NCBI GenBank assembly: GCA_020848035.1
Contig: JADLAX010000012.1
Location: 1 to 57,408, forward strand
Direction: 5' to 3'
Origin: Anaerolineae bacterium
GTDB lineage: Bacteria; Chloroflexota; Anaerolineae; Promineifilales; Promineifilaceae
Length of the DNA: 57,408 nt
In this document: positions 3,544 through 29,742 of the stretch, in pieces
Layout: every line of letters begins with the position of its first letter
Numbering within the stretch: position 1 is the stretch's first letter
The notes under the pieces: generated by a model
Databases searched by the model: none
What the model was told of the DNA's origin: nothing
The model's input: the letters and a program-made list of their open reading frames with translations, nothing else
Position numbers and translations under genes: made by a program

Positions 3544-5571
3544 TTATAAAGCCATTAGCTCGTCTAGCTCGGTGGAGAGGGTGGTGAGTTCGGTTTGGGC
3601 GATGGTGCGCTCCTGCTCAAGCGCTTCTTTGCGAGCACCAGTCGCCCGGGCCAGTTGGAAGGTTAGCTGCTCCCACCACCCTTCCGTCTCCTCAATTTGC
3701 TCGGTGAGTTCGCGAATGCGGCGGTCGCGCGCCCGGCGGTCTTCGGCGGTGACTTTAAGGGGATCCACCACATCCTCTATCCAGTCCAGATTAACCGGCG
3801 GCAGCACTTTTTCTTTAGTCGGCAGCGCCACTTTGGAAGAAATGGTCTTGATGATCGCCTCCCCACCCTCTTTAGTGGCCAGAAATTCCTGGTAGGTGCC
3901 GTCAAAAACGTGCAAATGTTGGTCGCGCAGCTCCCAGATTTGGGTGGCCAGGCGATCCACCAGGTAGCGGTCGTGGCTCACCAGCACAATCGTGCCGTCG
4001 AACTGCTCCAGCACCGCCTGCAGCGCCTCCTGCGACGGGATGTCCAGGTGGTTGGTTGGCTCGTCGAGCAGCAGGAAATTGGCCTCGTCCAGCGCCAGCA
4101 GCGCCAGGGCCAGACGGCCGCGTTCGCCCCCGCTCAAATCCCCCACCTGCTTAAACACATCGTCGCCGCGGAACAGGTACTGCCCCAGGTAGCGGCGCGC
4201 CTCTTCCGGCGACATCGGTTTGTGGGCCAGCACCTCATCCAGCACCCGTCGGTTCACGTCTAGCTGCTCGTGCCCCTGGGCAAAATAGCCCAGGATCAGC
4301 CCATCACCCAGGCGAATTTTGCCCCGCAGCGGTGGAATGTCGCCCAGGATGGTGCGCAGGAAGGTGCTTTTGCCGCTGCCATTGGGGCCAATCAGGGCGA
4401 CGCAGTCCAGCCGCTCCAGGTTGAGGTCGTCGCAGTCGAACAAGCTGTTTTCCGGGTAGCCGATGCGCAACTTTTTGGTGCGCAGCACAAAGCGGCTGCT
4501 GCGCTGCTCCGGCTTGAGCTTGATTTTAAGTTTGGGCATCCGGCTGGTGGGTGACGGCAGCTCTTTGATGCGCTGCGCCGCTTCGTTGACGGTGAGGGTG
4601 CGCACCCGCTCGCCGATTTGCAGCCAATTTTTGCCCTGCATGCCCAGCAGCCCCACCTCTTCGATGAGCACGAGGTCGCGGGTAAGGCGCTTGAGCTTGC
4701 CTTTGGCGATGTCGGTTTTGCCCCCGGCGATGTTTTTGCGAATGAATTCCAGCTCGGCTTCCAGGCGGGCCATCTCGTTGGCAAAAAGGGTCTCTTCGTG
4801 CTGCCACTCCAGCTCGCGCTGCTGGACGTAGGTGCTGTAGCTGCCTTTGTATGCTTTCACGCCAAACTGGTTCATGGACCACACCTGGGTCACCACACGG
4901 TCCAAAAAATAGCGGTCGTGGCTGACGATGATGAGCGTGCCTTCCCAGGTGCGCAGCGTTTTTTCCAGCCACTCGATGGCGCTGGTGTCCAGATGGTTGG
5001 TCGGCTCGTCGAGGATGAGCAGATCGGGTTTTTCCAGCAGCAGCCGCCCCAGCAGGACGCGGGTTTTCTGGCCGCCGCTCAAGTGCGTCAGCGGCGTGTC
5101 CCATTCATCGGCGGCGAAGCCCAGCCCTTGCAGCACACGTTTAATGTCGTGCTGGTAGTCGTAGCCGCCGCCGTGCTCGTAGAGGGTTTGGATACGGCCG
5201 TATTCCTCCAACACATCCTCCCCCATTTCCCCCGCTTCCATCCGGGTTTCCAACTCCCTCAGGCGTGTCTCATGGGCGCGCAGCCCGGCAAAAACGGACA
5301 GCATCTCCTCGTACACCGTGTTGTCTTGCCCGGCAAAGGTCAGCACCGCCTCTTGCCGCAGATAACCCAGCGTTAACTCTGCCTGGCGCGAGACGCTGCC
5401 GCCGGTTGGCTCCAGCAGCCCGGCCAGGATGAGCAGCAGGGTGGTTTTGCCCACACCGTTGGGACCTACCAACCCCACCCGATCTTTGGCGTGCAGCGTC
5501 ACCGAGACATCTTCAAACAGATCGTCCGCACCAAAGGCGTGTGCCAGTTCGTTGGCCTGCAAAATAATCAT
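3544..5571 (-). CDS. ABC-F family ATP-binding protein (ribosome-associated, Uup/YheS-like)
   Basis: This 675-residue protein has two ABC domains and no membrane segments. The N-terminal domain has GPNGVGKTT, LSGGQKTR and a LLILDEPTNHLD Walker B. The second has GPNGSGKST, LSGGERGR and LLLDEPTNHLD. An inter-domain linker with charged helices and a C-terminal charged, coiled-coil-like tail of about 90 residues are typical of ABC-F proteins, which bind the ribosomal E site and rescue stalled translation or protect against antibiotics. The start at 5571 is the first ATG of the conserved N-terminus; no Shine-Dalgarno is obvious, and a small hairpin lies just upstream. It stands alone, next to the end of the AT-rich island. 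Confidence 0.92.
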   Translation of the reverse strand: MIILQANELAHAFGADDLFEDVSVTLHAKDRVGLVGPNGVGKTTLLLILAGLLEPTGGSVSRQAELTLGYLRQEAVLTFAGQDNTVYEEMLSVFAGLRAHETRLRELETRMEAGEMGEDVLEEYGRIQTLYEHGGGYDYQHDIKRVLQGLGFAADEWDTPLTHLSGGQKTRVLLGRLLLEKPDLLILDEPTNHLDTSAIEWLEKTLRTWEGTLIIVSHDRYFLDRVVTQVWSMNQFGVKAYKGSYSTYVQQRELEWQHEETLFANEMARLEAELEFIRKNIAGGKTDIAKGKLKRLTRDLVLIEEVGLLGMQGKNWLQIGERVRTLTVNEAAQRIKELPSPTSRMPKLKIKLKPEQRSSRFVLRTKKLRIGYPENSLFDCDDLNLERLDCVALIGPNGSGKSTFLRTILGDIPPLRGKIRLGDGLILGYFAQGHEQLDVNRRVLDEVLAHKPMSPEEARRYLGQYLFRGDDVFKQVGDLSGGERGRLALALLALDEANFLLLDEPTNHLDIPSQEALQAVLEQFDGTIVLVSHDRYLVDRLATQIWELRDQHLHVFDGTYQEFLATKEGGEAIIKTISSKVALPTKEKVLPPVNLDWIEDVVDPLKVTAEDRRARDRRIRELTEQIEETEGWWEQLTFQLARATGARKEALEQERTIAQTELTTLSTELDELMAL

Positions 5572-24352: not shown

Positions 24353-24376
24353 GCACTTTTTTTGTAGACAACAACT

Positions 24377-24465
24377 GGGGAGAAGGGGTGAAGGGGTGAC
24401 AAGGTGACAAGGTGACGGGGTGACGGGGTGAAGGGGTGACGGGGTGAAGGGGTGAAGGGGTGAAG
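24377..24465. repeat. GGGGTGA/AGGTGAC simple tandem repeat
   Basis: About eleven 7-9 base units of GGGGTGAA, GGGGTGAC and AAGGTGAC follow each other between fur and the kinase gene. The tract is slippage-prone and gene-free. Confidence 0.85.
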
Positions 24466-24510
24466 GCCGTTTTCCTACCAAAACGTATTCGCTACAATAG
24501 GCGGTTAAAC

Positions 24511-25028: not shown

Positions 25029-25125
25029 CGGTTCCTACCCCCAACACCCACCGCAAATTCACCATATTCTGCCGCCACACGCACGCCTGATCCACGTACA
25101 AACTGGCGGACCAGATGCTTCCCAT
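25029..25125 (-). pseudogene. Relic of an HprK-like kinase 3' end
   Basis: On the minus strand this stretch reads SASLYVDQACVWRQNMVNL. The intact kinase at 28696-29742 has HNSLYVDRPQVWRQNVSNL near its C-terminus. The DNA also aligns well over about 80 bases (shared ATTCTGCCGCCACAC). No start or P-loop region is present, so this is the tail of a lost paralogue or a rearrangement scar. Confidence 0.7.
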
Positions 25126-25138
25126 CCATAAAAATATT

Positions 25139-25175
25139 TGCCCCGATTCGGGGACAGAACCCTGGAATCGGGGCA
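25139..25175 (-). terminator. Candidate terminator of the DGR template transcript
   Basis: TGCCCCGATTC (25139-25149) pairs perfectly with GAATCGGGGCA (25165-25175). On the minus strand the stem is followed by AATATTTTTATGG. It lies about 150 bases downstream of the template repeat. Confidence 0.6.
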
Positions 25176-25322
25176 GTTGTTATTTGCCTGGTCAGGCATG
25201 GTTTGCACCAATGCCCAACGCAGGAAGGAACAGGCCGCGCTTTCTCTCACGAACCTAAACAGGTTCTCTACCTCGGCCACCAAGCCATAGCCGGGTGACA
25301 ATTCCGGCGGAGCTGTTCTGGA

Positions 25323-25406
25323 AGAAATGAGCCGACCACCCCACCCGAAAACCGTTGTTGTTCCAGTTGTTGTCGTTGTTGTGGTTGCGATACGCCGACC
25401 GCGCGG
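25323..25406 (-). other. DGR template repeat (TR)
   Basis: This 84-bp stretch aligns without gaps to the variable repeat at 25581-25664 (constant offset 258). The two differ at 13 positions, and at every one the template has A on the minus strand. The core is a run of AAC codons (AACCACAACAACGACAACAAC), which encode Asn in the target frame and can mutate to many residues without making stops. Both ends are invariant: GCGCGGTCGGCGTATCGC on the 5' side and GGTTTTCGGGTGGGGTGGTC on the 3' side. It lies in a gene-free stretch downstream of the target gene, between a candidate promoter and terminator. Confidence 0.92.
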
Positions 25407-25448
25407 CTTCGGCCGTCCCTACTGCCCAATACAACAGACAGCAAAAAA

Positions 25449-25454
25449 ATTGTA
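25449..25454 (-). promoter_or_regulatory. Candidate extended -10 for the template RNA
   Basis: Minus-strand TGCTACAAT has its TACAAT at 25449-25454, about 43 bases upstream of the template repeat. The same TGCTACAAT occurs at the fur promoter. No -35 is clear. Transcription from here to 25139 would give an RNA of roughly 300 bases. Confidence 0.4.
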
Positions 25455-25493
25455 GCACAGATCACCTGAATTTCGGCTAGCAAAAATGGCAAA

Positions 25494-25514
25494 GCAGGGG
25501 GGAAGCCCCCCTGC
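25494..25514. repeat. GC-rich hairpin downstream of the variable repeat
   Basis: GCAGGGGGG and CCCCCCTGC (9-bp perfect arms, 3-base loop) lie 66 bases beyond the variable repeat in the reading direction of the target gene. Short GC-rich hairpins just after the variable repeat are known to help retrohoming in phage BPP-1. It may equally be the terminator of the target gene. Confidence 0.6.
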
Positions 25515-25560
25515 ACCCCCCACAAAGATCAAAGTTTCAGAGTGCCAGAGTTCAGAGGGT

Positions 25561-26949
25561 TCAGCGGCCAGAGGCAAGAGAGAAAGGAGCCGACCACCCC
25601 ACCCGAAAACCGTAGAGGAGCCAGTAGTAGCCGCTGTGGTGGCCGCGATACGCCGACCGCGCGGTGCGGGAATCTGAATACCAAGAGCCGCCTCGCAAAA
25701 CATGCCCATCATCTGCGTTCATGCGTTCGCGTCCGTCATCCGCCTTGTAAGGGTAAGCTTGCTTTGTGCTGCTGGTCCATTCCCAAACGTTGCCACTCAT
25801 ATCAAATACGCCATAGGGAGAAGCCCCTCTAGGAAATTGGGTAACAGGCGTTGTGCCCTCGTATTCATTTGCAGCATTGCACAAATTTTTTTGCCAATCA
25901 TTCCCCCAGGGATACTTGTACCCTTTAGGCCCACGCGCCGCTTTTTCCCACTCCGCCTCAGTCAGCAAACGAATGGGCACCCCGGAAACACGCGCCGCCC
26001 AATCACAAAACGCCACTGCATCTGACCAGGAAACATAATTAACCGGATGATTGTCTTTACCCGCAGGTATGCGTCCATTTTCCCAATGGGACGGCGCTCG
26101 ATGTCCCGCCGCCCGTACAAAAATCTGATACTGTTGGTTGGTAATGGGATACTTGGCAATGTAGTAGGCTGGCAAATAAACCTTGTGGCGCGGTTTTTCA
26201 CCATCGTACGCCTCCGGGTCGTTGGCCTCACTTCCCATCCAAAAATTTCCCGCCGGAACATAACACCATTCAAGCTTCAAGGCAGATGTCACGTAAGTCT
26301 CGCGCACCTTACCACTACTCTGACCCGATCGGTTGATTTTTCGGGCAGATGGCTCATGCACCTGCGTCAACAAATCATAAATGTAGCTGCCAATCAACTC
26401 TGGCGCGATTGCTTCAACCAGCAACCAGCTCAAAACAGCCACGGCAACGCCAAAAATCGTTTTGGCGCTCAGCTGCTTGGCCGTTTTTGGATCGGTCAGC
26501 CATTCCAATATAGCCCGTTCCCCGTAAGGTGTACATTGCAACAACGGCTCGCCTGGCAGCAAATGGAAAAGCTGGGGAGCCACATTCTCAACCAATCGTT
26601 CCACTAGCTCAGCTTTTCGGCCAGAAACGGGAAGGCCATGCGCCTCTAACAAACCTGTTAACTCAGCCACCGTTTTTTCAGCTAAAACCAGGGTAAGATG
26701 ATTCTTTGGCAGAATTTCCGCCAAAACCCCCTGCACACGAAACCGTTCAACCGCCTTTTCTACAGGTTCACCCAAAGTTGCTTCCCAAGTCGCTCTGCCC
26801 GGGAGATTAGATTGGGCCGAAACGGAACGAGGCTCAAGAAACGTGTTCAACAGGAGCATATGCCCGGCAGATTCGCGCCAACTCCAACCAAACGTTCGGC
26901 GTAGCTTTGATCCGAGATTTGAATTTGTTTCGTTACTCATAGCTGGCAT
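25561..26949 (-). CDS. DGR target protein: SAP domain, membrane segment and FGE-sulfatase (C-type-lectin-like) fold
   Basis: This 462-residue protein has a SAP-like motif (LTGLLEAHGLPVSGRKAEL) near residue 115 and a hydrophobic segment (IFGVAVAVLSWLLVEAI) near 185. From about 225 to the end is an FGE-sulfatase domain (FWMGSE, YPITNQQY, EWEKAARG, NVWEWTSS). FGE/CLec-fold domains are the usual hosts of DGR variable regions. The variable repeat covers about residues 429-456, ending 17 bases before the stop codon. Compared with the template the changed residues are mainly Asn to Gly, His, Ser, Tyr and Leu. The gene lacks ACGGCCGT sites. ATG 26949 is used; ATG 26940 is an alternative. Role: probably a diversified ligand-binding protein, ligand unknown. 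Confidence 0.88.
   Translation of the reverse strand: MPAMSNETNSNLGSKLRRTFGWSWRESAGHMLLLNTFLEPRSVSAQSNLPGRATWEATLGEPVEKAVERFRVQGVLAEILPKNHLTLVLAEKTVAELTGLLEAHGLPVSGRKAELVERLVENVAPQLFHLLPGEPLLQCTPYGERAILEWLTDPKTAKQLSAKTIFGVAVAVLSWLLVEAIAPELIGSYIYDLLTQVHEPSARKINRSGQSSGKVRETYVTSALKLEWCYVPAGNFWMGSEANDPEAYDGEKPRHKVYLPAYYIAKYPITNQQYQIFVRAAGHRAPSHWENGRIPAGKDNHPVNYVSWSDAVAFCDWAARVSGVPIRLLTEAEWEKAARGPKGYKYPWGNDWQKNLCNAANEYEGTTPVTQFPRGASPYGVFDMSGNVWEWTSSTKQAYPYKADDGRERMNADDGHVLRGGSWYSDSRTARSAYRGHHSGYYWLLYGFRVGWSAPFSLASGR
25581..25664 (-). other. DGR variable repeat (VR)
   Basis: This 84-bp segment at the 3' end of the target gene matches the template repeat except at 13 template adenines. It ends in the constant GGTTTTCGGGTGGGGTGGTC, the likely initiation-of-mutagenic-homing region. 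Coding outcome: the template frame R-N-H-N-N-D-N-N-W-N-N-N reads R-G-H-H-S-G-Y-Y-W-L-L-Y here, while GFRVGWSA after it is constant. Confidence 0.92.
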
Positions 26950-27078: not shown

Positions 27079-28575
27079 CTAATAGGCCCAAGCGTTCTGT
27101 TTAAACAGTTCAATTTCTTCTGGCTGTATCACTTCTTTGGCATCAGACACATTTCCCACAACAATCTTTGAAGTATCTAACGCAGATTGTAAGCTTTTAC
27201 TTGAGATCCATACATTTTCCCACAAATCTACCGTCTCCCCATTCACAATTTTGCATATCGATTCATCACTTGTAAACGGAATACCAATTGTTTTTGGCTG
27301 CGTGACTCGCTGCAGCCAAATCTCTAAATAGCCATTATATGGAACACGGGCCATCTTTTTACGCACTTTCATCCATAGCCTAGATTTCTCATCTGGAGAT
27401 GCCAGGGAAATAAGATGACTCAAAATGCCTGCAACTGCTGGAAATGTAGCTGGTGAAACAAAACCTATGTCTGTAGCAATAGCAACCTGTACCTCAAGGT
27501 CATCGGGTCTTTCGCTATGTTTTGTTATCTTGGTATGAAATTCGCTAACCAAACGTCGAAGAGCTCCGCTATTTGGGAAACGCATTCCAAAAGAATGAAG
27601 CCTAAGCAACTGCTTTTGAATCGTCTTTGCATTTGCATCGCCAAGATCTTGTAAGTCAATTCCTGCCAGCTTGTCTGGTTTTATAGATCCTTCAACCACA
27701 TTGCGGCTTAAGAAAGTCTTTGACACACCCAATTTCATTCCAACCGAACGTAGCTTATCGCTTATTACTTTTAAAATTTCTTCAGCTCGATCATCGCTGT
27801 TGGCAAAAATCCTATAATCATCCCGAAATCTCAAAATCCGAAAATCGTCCGGTTCACCTAATGCAGAGTTAATCAGCATATCGACATAGCCTAGAACTAT
27901 CTCTGCAATAAAATCCATCAAAGCAGACCCCTGGGAAATACCGTTCGTTTGCCCATAACGACTTGCTTGAATATGCGAATCAATCTTATTACCTAAAAGA
28001 GAATTTTTTCTCTTATTCTTCTTAGCGTCTTCTAAGCCATGTAGTGCCCAAGAAATACTGTGAGTGTACAGAGAGCCATAACAGTCAATTACATCTGTAT
28101 GAAGAACATGGCTAAATTCTAAAGAATAGCTCAATGATCGTTGTTCTACACTTTGCCACCAACTTCTAACCTGCGCCGCTGAATCACTTTGATGATCAAG
28201 TGACATGACAGGAGCACTGCAACAATCAACCGAACCGCCAGCAAAACTCGAAAATCGGCTAACAATGTGACTCCAGTTATCAGAATCACAAATAACTTCT
28301 ACCAAAGAAACATAAATTGCTGGGTGGATTAGCTCATATGGTCTCCACGCTAGCCTGCCGTCTTTGTTTACAACGAAATTGTAATTTACACCTGGATATT
28401 CTCCTGGATTGGCTGACTTAAATGCAGTATAGCTATCTCCGTTTAACACAGATGCAACATCCTCTAGGATTGGTTCAAAACTCACGTAGTTCGGCACGTC
28501 TCCACTAAAGTAACTACTTCCTTTAGTAAAATATTTTCTTGCTTCCTCATTTGAAAGTTCAACTAGTTTCTTCAT
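27079..28575 (-). CDS. Reverse transcriptase, probably of the unknown-group/defence (UG/DRT) type
   Basis: The 498-residue protein has RT motifs in order. Motif A is HTDVIDCYGSLYTH (Asp near 160), motif B is NGISQGSALMDFIAEI, motif C is LRFRDDYRIF (DD near 250) and motif D is GMKLGVSKTF. The QGS in motif B and the FRDDYRIF form of motif C resemble abortive-infection/DRT enzymes, as I remember them; DGR enzymes usually have an SQ motif B and YMDD/YVDD. The long C-terminal part is alpha-helical and unrecognised. ATG 28575 is chosen; a GTG at 28602 is in frame. The gene is AT-rich without ACGGCCGT sites, suggesting transfer. It is either an anti-phage RT beside the DGR or a divergent DGR enzyme. 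Confidence 0.85.
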   Translation of the reverse strand: MKKLVELSNEEARKYFTKGSSYFSGDVPNYVSFEPILEDVASVLNGDSYTAFKSANPGEYPGVNYNFVVNKDGRLAWRPYELIHPAIYVSLVEVICDSDNWSHIVSRFSSFAGGSVDCCSAPVMSLDHQSDSAAQVRSWWQSVEQRSLSYSLEFSHVLHTDVIDCYGSLYTHSISWALHGLEDAKKNKRKNSLLGNKIDSHIQASRYGQTNGISQGSALMDFIAEIVLGYVDMLINSALGEPDDFRILRFRDDYRIFANSDDRAEEILKVISDKLRSVGMKLGVSKTFLSRNVVEGSIKPDKLAGIDLQDLGDANAKTIQKQLLRLHSFGMRFPNSGALRRLVSEFHTKITKHSERPDDLEVQVAIATDIGFVSPATFPAVAGILSHLISLASPDEKSRLWMKVRKKMARVPYNGYLEIWLQRVTQPKTIGIPFTSDESICKIVNGETVDLWENVWISSKSLQSALDTSKIVVGNVSDAKEVIQPEEIELFKQNAWAY

Positions 28576-28695
28576 ATATACCCATGTTCTGGCGTGATTC
28601 ACGATTTATCAGAAAACATCAAAATATTAACACATAAAACGCCAAAACACGGCAGCATATGCAAATCGGTACGCCAGCAGATAATTTGAGGGAAT

Positions 28696-29742
28696 TCAAT
28701 AAGCTATGAGGTAATTGTCCAAAATGGTTGGCAATTGATTAGAATCAAATCCTAGTATCAGGGATAATACCGTTCCCCCCCCCAACATCTTCTCTAAATT
28801 AGAAACATTCTGCCGCCACACCTGCGGCCGATCCACATACAAACTGTTGTGCAAAATGGCCTGAATCACTTCCGCTTCCCCCACCTCTTCTACCACCGTC
28901 GCCTCTTGTTCATGGCGCGACAGCAGGCAGAGGATGATTTTTCGGGGACGTACGGCCGTTTCCCACACAAAATCAGGGTTGACGGCGCGCAAATCCACCC
29001 GGTACTTCGTCTCCTGGCGCACGACTTCTGGTTGGAGGAACGGCCGTAATTCCGGGAACTGATCCACCATATCGCCACGCAGCTTGGCCAGCCCCATCGG
29101 GTAGCCGTGCAAAAAACCATCGCCATCGACAAACACCATGCTGTCCGTGAGCAAGCGAAAGCCCGCCAGCGCCAGCCGCAGCGCCGTGGTGCTTTTACCC
29201 GTGTTGTGCGGCGCCAGCAGCAGCAGCGCCACCCCGTCCCGCACCAGGCAGGAGGCGTGCAGCATCCCATAACCATGCGAGATCACCAAATTGAGCAGCA
29301 GCGTGTGCAGCACACATTGGGCTACCAGTTCCGGTTTGGCAGCGAGTTGGGGGGAGAGAACGGCCGTACCCAACCGCCGCGACAAATCCAGATGCACCAC
29401 GCCCCAACCGCCCAGCTGCATCATCAGCCAATCGGCGCTGCCGCTGTAGGTGATCTGCTGCATCAAGTCGTCCGGCGCGGGGCCGGGGGGCTGGCGCATG
29501 GGCTGCACCACAAGTTGCAGTGCGCCCAACGGCGCTTTGCTTTGCGCCGTTTTTGTATAATTTTGCAGGGCAAATTCAACTGCGGCCAACACCCCCACCA
29601 CGTTGCTCTCCACCACCAGCGGATGACCAAACAGCCGCACTTCCTGCCTAAACTGGAGATTGTTGGTGCGGCGCTGCCAGAAATCTTCCAGGTCGCTCTC
29701 GTTCAATTGGGACAGCCAATCGTCGTTGGGAATTGTTGTCAT
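28696..29742 (-). CDS. HprK-like P-loop kinase
   Basis: This 348-residue protein has a central HPr-kinase-like P-loop (LLAPHNTGKSTT, near residues 177-188) preceded by HGYGMLHASCLV. After it come LLTDSMVFVDGDG and a basic region. HprK relatives in lasso-type peptide clusters phosphorylate a serine at the end of the precursor; here the peptides end in SSH, which makes that attractive but unproven. The ATG at 29742 overlaps the flippase stop by four bases (ATGA), so the gene is the third of an operon with the nucleotidyltransferase and flippase. A damaged copy of its 3' end lies at 25029-25125. Confidence 0.78.
   Translation of the reverse strand: MTTIPNDDWLSQLNESDLEDFWQRRTNNLQFRQEVRLFGHPLVVESNVVGVLAAVEFALQNYTKTAQSKAPLGALQLVVQPMRQPPGPAPDDLMQQITYSGSADWLMMQLGGWGVVHLDLSRRLGTAVLSPQLAAKPELVAQCVLHTLLLNLVISHGYGMLHASCLVRDGVALLLLAPHNTGKSTTALRLALAGFRLLTDSMVFVDGDGFLHGYPMGLAKLRGDMVDQFPELRPFLQPEVVRQETKYRVDLRAVNPDFVWETAVRPRKIILCLLSRHEQEATVVEEVGEAEVIQAILHNSLYVDRPQVWRQNVSNLEKMLGGGTVLSLILGFDSNQLPTILDNYLIAY

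Follow-up and report, generated by a model that had tools for sequence, protein, structure and literature searches.

A diversity-generating retroelement cassette without its own reverse transcriptase, and the conserved RNA domain 3' of its template, in an Anaerolineae bacterium

A 57,408-nt stretch of DNA from an Anaerolineae bacterium of the family Promineifilaceae (contig JADLAX010000012.1 of assembly GCA_020848035.1, analysed over its whole length and called the window here) carries on its minus strand, at positions 25123–25664, a cassette of a diversity-generating retroelement (DGR). The cassette consists of an AAC-rich template repeat (TR), a variable repeat (VR) at the 3' end of a target gene whose product ends in an FGE-sulfatase domain, and a structured RNA domain directly 3' of the template, and no DGR-type reverse transcriptase (RT) lies in its locus within the 57-kb window. 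We consider it likely that the target was rewritten at adenines by a DGR RT and Avd, which would have acted in trans on the template RNA of the cassette.

The TR (25323–25406, minus strand) and the VR (25581–25664, minus strand) both measure 84 nt. They differ at 13 of the 84 sites, every one of them an adenine of the template strand; that is, 13 of 20 adenines but none of the 64 other bases are changed (hypergeometric p = 1.2e-10 for such a pattern by chance). These coordinates, the length, the 13 differences and the 20 template adenines on the minus strand had all been given correctly in a preliminary description of the window, which was made from the sequence alone. Extension of the two repeats without regard to base left the boundaries unchanged at 84 nt, and hence the adenine-only pattern is not an artefact of the search. 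The pair is the sole adenine-only pair across the window, and the 111-nt template region occurs at two places in the whole 7.65-Mb assembly, with no third copy. The changes are confined to the first two positions of codons, and whatever base replaces an adenine, the template codons never yield a stop; translated, the repeat reads ARSAYRNHNNDNNWNNNGFRVGWSAHF in the template and ARSAYRGHHSGYYWLLYGFRVGWSAPF in the gene. Judged by its sequence, the pair is a genuine DGR template/target cassette, yet it belongs to an incomplete DGR.

The 3'-most difference between the two repeats (25328 in the template, 25586 in the gene) is an A>C change. When the loci with a TR/VR pair beside the RNA domain (see below) are compared, 35 of 37 isolated last mismatches, i.e. 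those at least 20 nt from the next difference, pair an A of the TR with a C of the VR, as compared to C at 104 of 690 other changed adenines. We infer that this fixed A/C mark represents the difference between the initiation of mutagenic homing site (IMH) and its template counterpart IMH*, beyond which cDNA is not copied, with base 25586 as the fixed C opposite template A 25328. With this fixed mark set aside, real mutagenesis accounts for 12 of 19 adenines, and the earlier statement that both repeat ends are invariant is not quite right. A GC-rich hairpin with a 9-bp stem and a 3-nt loop, detected by a stem search (25494–25514, minus strand), follows 66 nt 3' of the VR. Stems of at least 8 bp occur within 110 nt 3' of the VR in 29 of 50 loci, where the longest stem averages 7.96 bp versus 4.37 bp in base shuffles; these hairpins may instead serve as terminators of the target genes. 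Alignment of the window with three related cassettes from its family, judged by eye, revealed the motif TG-NNN-TAYAAT before the TR in all four, and in the window it corresponds to a predicted extended -10-like promoter element (TGTGCTACAAT; 25449–25459, minus strand). From its sequence, the template RNA is predicted to start ~35–45 nt before the template.

In the same four-cassette alignment, conservation runs well beyond the TR, up to a hairpin and a T run. This conserved region, which starts 9 nt past the TR, is a structured RNA domain of ~190 nt (25123–25313, minus strand), as delimited by its fold, by covariance models R1 and R2, and by covariation. Its terminal hairpin (25140–25174) and the T-rich run that follows (together 25130–25174, minus strand) are predicted from sequence and fold to form a terminator. 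The stretch 25115–25322 of the window folds with a z score of -3.69 and beats 200 of 200 shuffles, and compensatory changes among the four sequences affect 11 of 42 predicted pairs. With model R1, 21 hits were obtained across 14 of the 52 genomes of the family, including RT-linked DGRs. Among these 21 sequences, 87.4% of cells can pair versus 71.3% after shuffling, with 127 double-change cells versus 40.4; for 69 sequences, the count rose to 428 versus 143.8 shuffled and at most 108 when the structure was slid. Both alignments were fitted to the structure and are thus biased towards it, and the shuffles ignore kinship. With model R2, 58 of the 396 genomes examined in the class gave a match at E 0.001; these 396 came from a larger group, and stricter filters were used in their scoring. 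Rfam families gave no match in the window at their gathering cut-offs.

Since the RNA models were built from family sequences only, and only from sequence 3' of the TR, we scored all 56 loci that the R2 search returned from outside the family (two overlapping matches on one contig being counted as one). An adenine-only TR/VR stretch is present at 35 of them, with the TR adjoining the RNA on its 5' side and on the same strand (within 100 nt in 33 of the 35), and 28 of these 35 loci carry a DGR RT. Within the family, i.e. among the training sequences, 16 of 21 RNA loci have an adjoining pair. An AAC-rich, TR-like stretch precedes the RNA in 14 of the remaining 21 out-of-family loci, as counted without a control. 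Altogether, no pair was detected at 26 of 77 RNA matches; 15 of these have at least seven AAC within up to 160 nt before the RNA (likewise counted without a control), two are cut by a contig end and nine have no clear template. Base-blind extension of the 50 direct pairs beside the RNA, from which one inverted pair was excluded, revealed changes at 763 of 1266 template adenines versus 30 of 3665 other sites. There is no non-adenine mismatch in 26 of the 50 and one to three in the other 24; pairs outside the window had been required to have an adenine-only core of 33 nt or more, so that they are adenine-only partly by construction. Because adenine-directed TR/VR pairs lie directly 5' of the RNA in loci outside the training set, we read this RNA as the 3' domain of the DGR RNA and, by analogy, as the putative counterpart of the spacer of Bordetella phage BPP-1. 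The nearest VR lies 5' of the TR in 46 of 51 loci with a pair and the RNA domain, and the order of target before template is therefore ordinary here, not less usual as had been thought initially.

A few RNA loci are recorded here in their own right. In L256 (G250:C8, RNA at 4738–4903) and L305 (G012:C110, RNA at 3581–3714), the RNA is directly preceded by VR-like, not TR-like, sequence; these loci are possibly products of VR–TR recombination that deleted the template. The near-identical RNA matches of L202 (G234:C25, 6523–6677) and L203 (G254:C519, 6987–7141), which score 80 and 77 bits, have no template-like sequence before them. In the RT-linked loci L164, L167, L172 and L211, the RT gene lies on the opposite strand, such that the target–TR–RNA unit and the RT converge on the terminal hairpin.

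The assembly to which the window belongs (G000) is 97.2% complete with 7.3% contamination and comprises 104 contigs. We searched it and the other genomes with Pfam RVT_1, with a DGR RT profile of 21 sequences from the same family and with a single Avd query at E 0.01. Three proteins in G000 match RVT_1, one each on contigs C13 and C17 plus the Abi-P2 RT encoded beside the target gene; by reading, the C13 protein is a group II intron protein and the C17 protein a defence-type RT. Relics of a DGR RT were found as a C-terminal piece on C8 and as two pieces on C72, one of which contains six stops. The pieces on C72 (L225, 7530–8982) lie at both ends of open reading frames (ORFs) named by reading as an IS630-like transposase, and the adjacent gene encodes an FGE domain at its C-terminus. 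As the assembly holds only such broken remnants, the mutating RT would have operated from another location: it was either lost recently from the strain, whose sensor would then be frozen, or it resides on DNA outside the assembly.

TR-like DNA occurs in nine of the 52 family genomes, G000 included. Three of the cassettes (G299:C31, G310:C187 and G214:C358) share with the window the same layout of FGE target, hairpin, promoter-like element, TR and RNA domain, with 228–252 nt between TR and VR and no RT beside them. The RNA domains of the four family cassettes score 140.1, 142.3, 136.4 and 132.7 bits, all four being among the sequences from which the model was built. The cassettes of the window and of G299 are located in the interior of long contigs. 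Genomes G310 and G214 encode complete DGR RTs on other contigs; in G214, the Avd beside the DGR RT scores 85 bits with NCBIfam DivGenRetAVD (cut-off 80). G299 has no RVT_1 match and a single truncated RT piece on C65. To extend the comparison, a locus was called RT-linked if an RT match covering at least 150 of 359 profile positions lay in the stretch seen. By this measure, 39 of the 51 loci with TR/VR pair and RNA are RT-linked, though in L289 and L300 the RT is split, and the remaining 12 lack an RT (G000, G299, G310, G214, G326, G219, G228, G280, G333, G292, G012 and G030). A full DGR RT is encoded elsewhere in six of these 12 genomes, namely G219 (3), G333, G292, G030, G310 (2) and G214, all six with Avd, and in G292 it is found on the cassette's own contig, ~18 kb away. 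Avd was detected in eight of the 12 genomes, the exceptions being G000, G299, G280 and G012. G280 and G012 each encode one RVT_1 protein, which the DGR RT profile scores weakly at 69.2 and 114.2 bits, as compared to at least 538 bits for complete RTs.

There are signs that the cassettes have been active not long ago. A dead, non-coding TR is expected to drift. Base-blind extension of each TR against its own VR revealed non-adenine mismatches at 0 of 64 sites in the window, 1 of 67 in G299, 1 of 66 in G310 and 1 of 64 in G214, whereas from genome to genome the TRs differ at 2–7 of 57–60 non-adenine sites, the comparison being weak for the closest pair (G299 versus G310, 2 of 59). That is, TR and own VR agree at non-adenine sites better than TRs of different species do, which suggests that rewriting is likely recent, and on this sequence comparison the window cassette, too, was probably rewritten recently. 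Variation within a lineage is seen for the G299 cassette: P0124, a database protein closely related to the target of G299, differs from it at 11 of 13 adenine-bearing VR codons and at none of 14 other VR codons, and outside the VR at 19 of 415 residues, the start codon among them. In the RT-less G228, whose genome is a single contig without any RVT_1 match, 24 of 33 adenines and 0 of 67 other sites are changed between TR and VR.

It is conceivable how such a cassette would operate. Transcription from the promoter before the template would yield an RNA of ~310 nt (about 25442–25130, minus strand), with the hairpin and T run as its 3' terminus. Its structured 3' domain would recruit RT–Avd and help to prime cDNA synthesis at the 3' end of the template, as in the analogous case of the BPP-1 spacer. 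Adenines would be miscopied during cDNA synthesis, and the cDNA would then replace the VR, with boundary sequence and hairpin directing it to the site.

A number of findings weigh against rewriting in trans. Searches with RVT_1 and the DGR RT profile found no intact DGR RT in the G000 assembly but relics only, so that trans action today is conjectural, and the single Avd query at E 0.01 had no match there. No full DGR RT was found anywhere in six of the 12 genomes with RT-less cassettes (G000, G299, G326, G228, G280 and G012). The contigs of G310 and G214 end 680 and 460 nt past the RNA, and since they end so close to it, an RT may lie farther out in these two cases. RT relics are present at the locus itself in G326, G228 and G030. 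Within-lineage variation is of the G299 type only, at the protein level. Finally, in a tree of the RNA with 69 rows (10 RT-less, 45 RT-linked and 14 uncounted loci; G012 and G030 scored too low to enter) and weak deep branches, the label 'no RT' changes six times, at least four of them by well-supported branches, versus 9.4 times when shuffled. There were thus several losses of the RT, or several origins of RT-less cassettes, and repeated RT loss fits the tree as well as a standing non-autonomous lineage does.

The latter possibility deserves to be spelled out. RT-less DGR cassettes could represent a standing class of non-autonomous elements. Next to a sensor gene, each would have its own promoter, template, structured RNA domain for RT recruitment and terminator; it would borrow RT–Avd from another locus or element, and a locked-in receptor would remain once the cell loses the RT. 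We put this forward tentatively, as a proposal somewhat more likely to be wrong than right. If true, bacteria could turn receptor evolution on and off.

Alternatively, the cassette might be a fossil of a complete DGR from which adjacent RT and Avd genes were deleted, leaving a dead cassette and a VR frozen at its last state. This scenario draws on G326 and on the single-contig genome G228, in which an RT relic and an open Avd frame lie beside the cassette; because relics lie in the locus in these two genomes and in G030, the RT was once present in cis there and then lost. Moreover, full RT and Avd are both missing in G000, G299, G280 and G012, and G000 contains RT relics elsewhere. However, the TR of the window shows 0 of 64 non-adenine mismatches to the VR despite being non-coding, and the RNA domain is uneroded in the four family cassettes, albeit all four belong to the building set of the model. 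In addition, these four cassettes share one layout without adjacent remains of an RT, and both RT relics of G000 reside on other contigs. We regard a fossil as rather unlikely.

About equally doubtful is a narrower version of rewriting in trans, according to which RT and Avd are present in the strain on a plasmid, a phage or an unbinned contig and act on the cassette now. The draft state of the assembly with its 104 contigs leaves room for such DNA, and the full RTs found elsewhere in half of the 12 genomes, including the one ~18 kb off on the same contig in G292, provide precedents. Against it stands the joint absence of full RT and Avd from four genomes of 92–99% completeness, which is unlikely to result from missing sequence alone in all four.

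A further candidate is the neighbouring RT gene. The Abi-P2 reverse transcriptase (27079–28602, minus strand; PADLOC AbiP2 5.5e-190), a defence RT that we judge to lie outside the cassette, is encoded directly upstream of the target gene on the same strand with a gap of ~130 bp, and it is the only RT in the window (Pfam RVT_1 3.9e-09). Position, strand and RT identity would thus suit a new kind of DGR enzyme that itself carries out the adenine mutagenesis. We examined 86 loci of Abi-P2 relatives, i.e. the best 80 of 115 confirmed on genome contigs plus six from whole genomes, in stretches of 3–22 kb; named relatives include Chloroflexi, Caldilineaceae and Anaerolineae records among more distant groups. 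The adenine-only repeat scan, which recovers the window's own pair, found a DGR-like pair at the gene end in none of the 86. Apart from two short pairs in L068 (see below), what it reported were CRISPR-like repeats (L076), homopolymer ends (L039 and L091), palindromes (L083) and, in L075 and L052, the ends of longer, mobile-element-like repeats with changes bunched at one end. The same type of cassette also exists in G299, a genome without any RVT_1 match, and across the class the RNA domain accompanies DGR-type RTs. Abi-P2 was therefore rejected as the adenine mutator, a role that appears most improbable. Last, chance or ordinary repeat duplication with biased substitution can be dismissed for practical purposes: two-copy repeats are common, but the p value of 1.2e-10, the excess of changed adenines in the 50 pairs (763 of 1266 versus 30 of 3665 other sites), the boundary mark and the hairpin all speak against it.

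One locus among the Abi-P2 relatives may be noted separately. L068, a Carboxylicivirga record, contains two pairs, 4991–5031/9420–9460 (41 nt, seven changes) and 1–62/5801–5862 (62 nt, six changes), near the Abi-P2 gene, in which all changes fall at A of one copy, also after extension. As these pairs are intergenic and not AAC-rich, they were not counted as DGR.

The target gene (25561–26949, minus strand; ORF and Pfam) encodes a protein of 462 residues with a SAP domain, a hydrophobic segment and the C-terminal FGE-sulfatase (C-type-lectin-like) domain that holds the VR. The latter domain comprises residues 228–450 (Pfam 1.2e-50), with the VR at its end. A profile of the target family yields 37 sequence matches, including Treponema denticola variable protein 1, which we take to be a known DGR product, and the AlphaFold model (mean pLDDT 80.9, pTM 0.57) finds ToxD, CalU17 and formylglycine-generating enzymes (FGE) as top matches in the PDB. 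Pfam, sequence profile and structure model thus agree with the original placement of the VR in a C-terminal FGE-type domain. The SAP domain (residues 93–122; 26584–26673, minus strand) scores 34.3 bits with Pfam SAP versus a cut-off of 23.9 (E 1.7e-08), and the family profile matches the SAP of THO1 in the PDB. The hydrophobic, possibly membrane-spanning segment comprises residues 164–182 (26404–26460, minus strand), with a mean Kyte–Doolittle hydropathy of 2.15 over 19 residues. Of the 'SAP-like motif' and 'membrane segment' of the preliminary description, the former is borne out by a score above the Pfam cut-off, and the latter amounts to one 19-residue hydrophobic stretch identified by hydropathy. 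Regarding a viral origin of the target, there were two pattern matches in IMG/VR contigs, and no relative was confirmed. We predict that the target protein is a sensor that combines an FGE-type ligand-binding end with SAP and the hydrophobic segment and has a role in defence, and that Abi-P2 and the target possibly form a small defence island. The targets at eight of the 12 RT-less loci were scanned as well and carry, before the FGE domain, CHAT (2), NACHT (2), TIR (2), a KAP NTPase or a zinc ribbon; one of the TIR targets also contains EAD7 below its cut-off. In the part of Dore et al. 2024 (PMC10907252) drawn on here, CHAT, NACHT, TIR and KAP are mentioned in connection with conflict systems.

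Further repeats surround the cassette. A direct repeat of 75 nt, 75% identical, occurs at 25031–25105 and 28772–28846. At 28772–28846, the copy forms the end of the coding strand (3') of a gene named by reading as HprK-like, and that at 25031–25105, just beyond the DGR RNA, is a stray fragment of such a gene; Abi-P2 and the cassette are therefore flanked by related sequence. In addition, a tandem array of 8-nt units (GGGGTGAA/C) at 24369–24474 overlaps the start of an ORF named by reading as Fur-like.

Taken together, the preliminary reading holds for a template/variable pair in an FGE-type target, and lacks support for a working DGR in this genome, in whose assembly only RT relics and no Avd were found. 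Lack of variation combined with lack of a DGR-type RT had been named as evidence against a DGR; the RT is indeed missing from the assembly, and variation is seen in the lineage of the G299 cassette. Surveys of DGRs that start from the RT gene are blind to RT-less cassettes. In the section of Roux et al. 2021 consulted (PMC8144416), it is stated that targets not adjoining the RT escape their approach. The model of the RNA domain finds DGR templates without an RT search and makes a class-wide DGR RNA testable, RT-less cassettes offer a clean test of DGR RNA recognition in trans, and SAP is added to the domains joined to DGR-type sensors. Among titles and abstracts, with few subscription papers and no bioRxiv collection covered, we found no report of DGR cassettes that lack an RT but possess an RNA domain, nor of a DGR-RNA covariance model; a literature search, again with few subscription papers, returned no text containing both 'diversity-generating retroelement' and 'SAP domain', and a text search of PMC10907252 found no mention of SAP. 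So far as searched, three things are new: an RNA domain that is backed by covariation and spans the class, the recurrence of RT-less cassettes in which template and RNA are retained, and the fusion of SAP to the target.

Among known systems, the defence RTs (DRTs) are represented in the window by the Abi-P2 neighbour at 27079–28602, with no sign of a role in template/variable exchange. The DGR of Bordetella phage BPP-1 (mtd, avd, TR, spacer, brt) is alike in its adenine-directed transfer from TR to VR, the boundary difference between TR and VR, the hairpin 3' of the VR and the structured spacer 3' of the TR, according to the portions of PMC12875486 and PMC3240598 consulted; in these, the spacer is reported to fold and recruit RT–Avd (PMC12875486), and the target site to need the hairpin (PMC3240598). 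However, the BPP-1 spacer leads to the RT gene, whereas that of the window leads to a predicted terminator with no RT or Avd in cis; the BPP-1 hairpin lies immediately downstream of the VR rather than 66 nt after it, and the BPP-1 target is a phage tail gene rather than a cellular gene. The RNA domain of the window is defined by its own model within a bacterial class and is likened to the BPP-1 spacer by analogy. Cyanobacterial DGRs with remote variable proteins, as described in the excerpt used of PMC7517822, resemble the window in having targets of CLec fold away from the RT locus, but there the TR to which a remote target is linked belongs to the DGR locus, whereas the window's template adjoins its target. 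The systems of Dore et al. 2024 likewise combine FGE/CLec targets with NACHT, TIR, CHAT and KAP, and include degenerate RT-less loci, proposed trans action and transposons in RT genes; in the parts of that paper considered (PMC10907252), RT-less loci and action in trans are thus already in print for Thiohalocapsa. Their case for trans action rests on VRs that match the TR of another locus, whereas the window cassette comes with a TR and an RNA domain of its own. Unlike the loci in these parts of their study, cassettes of the window type, without RT and Avd, retain the same layout across several genera.

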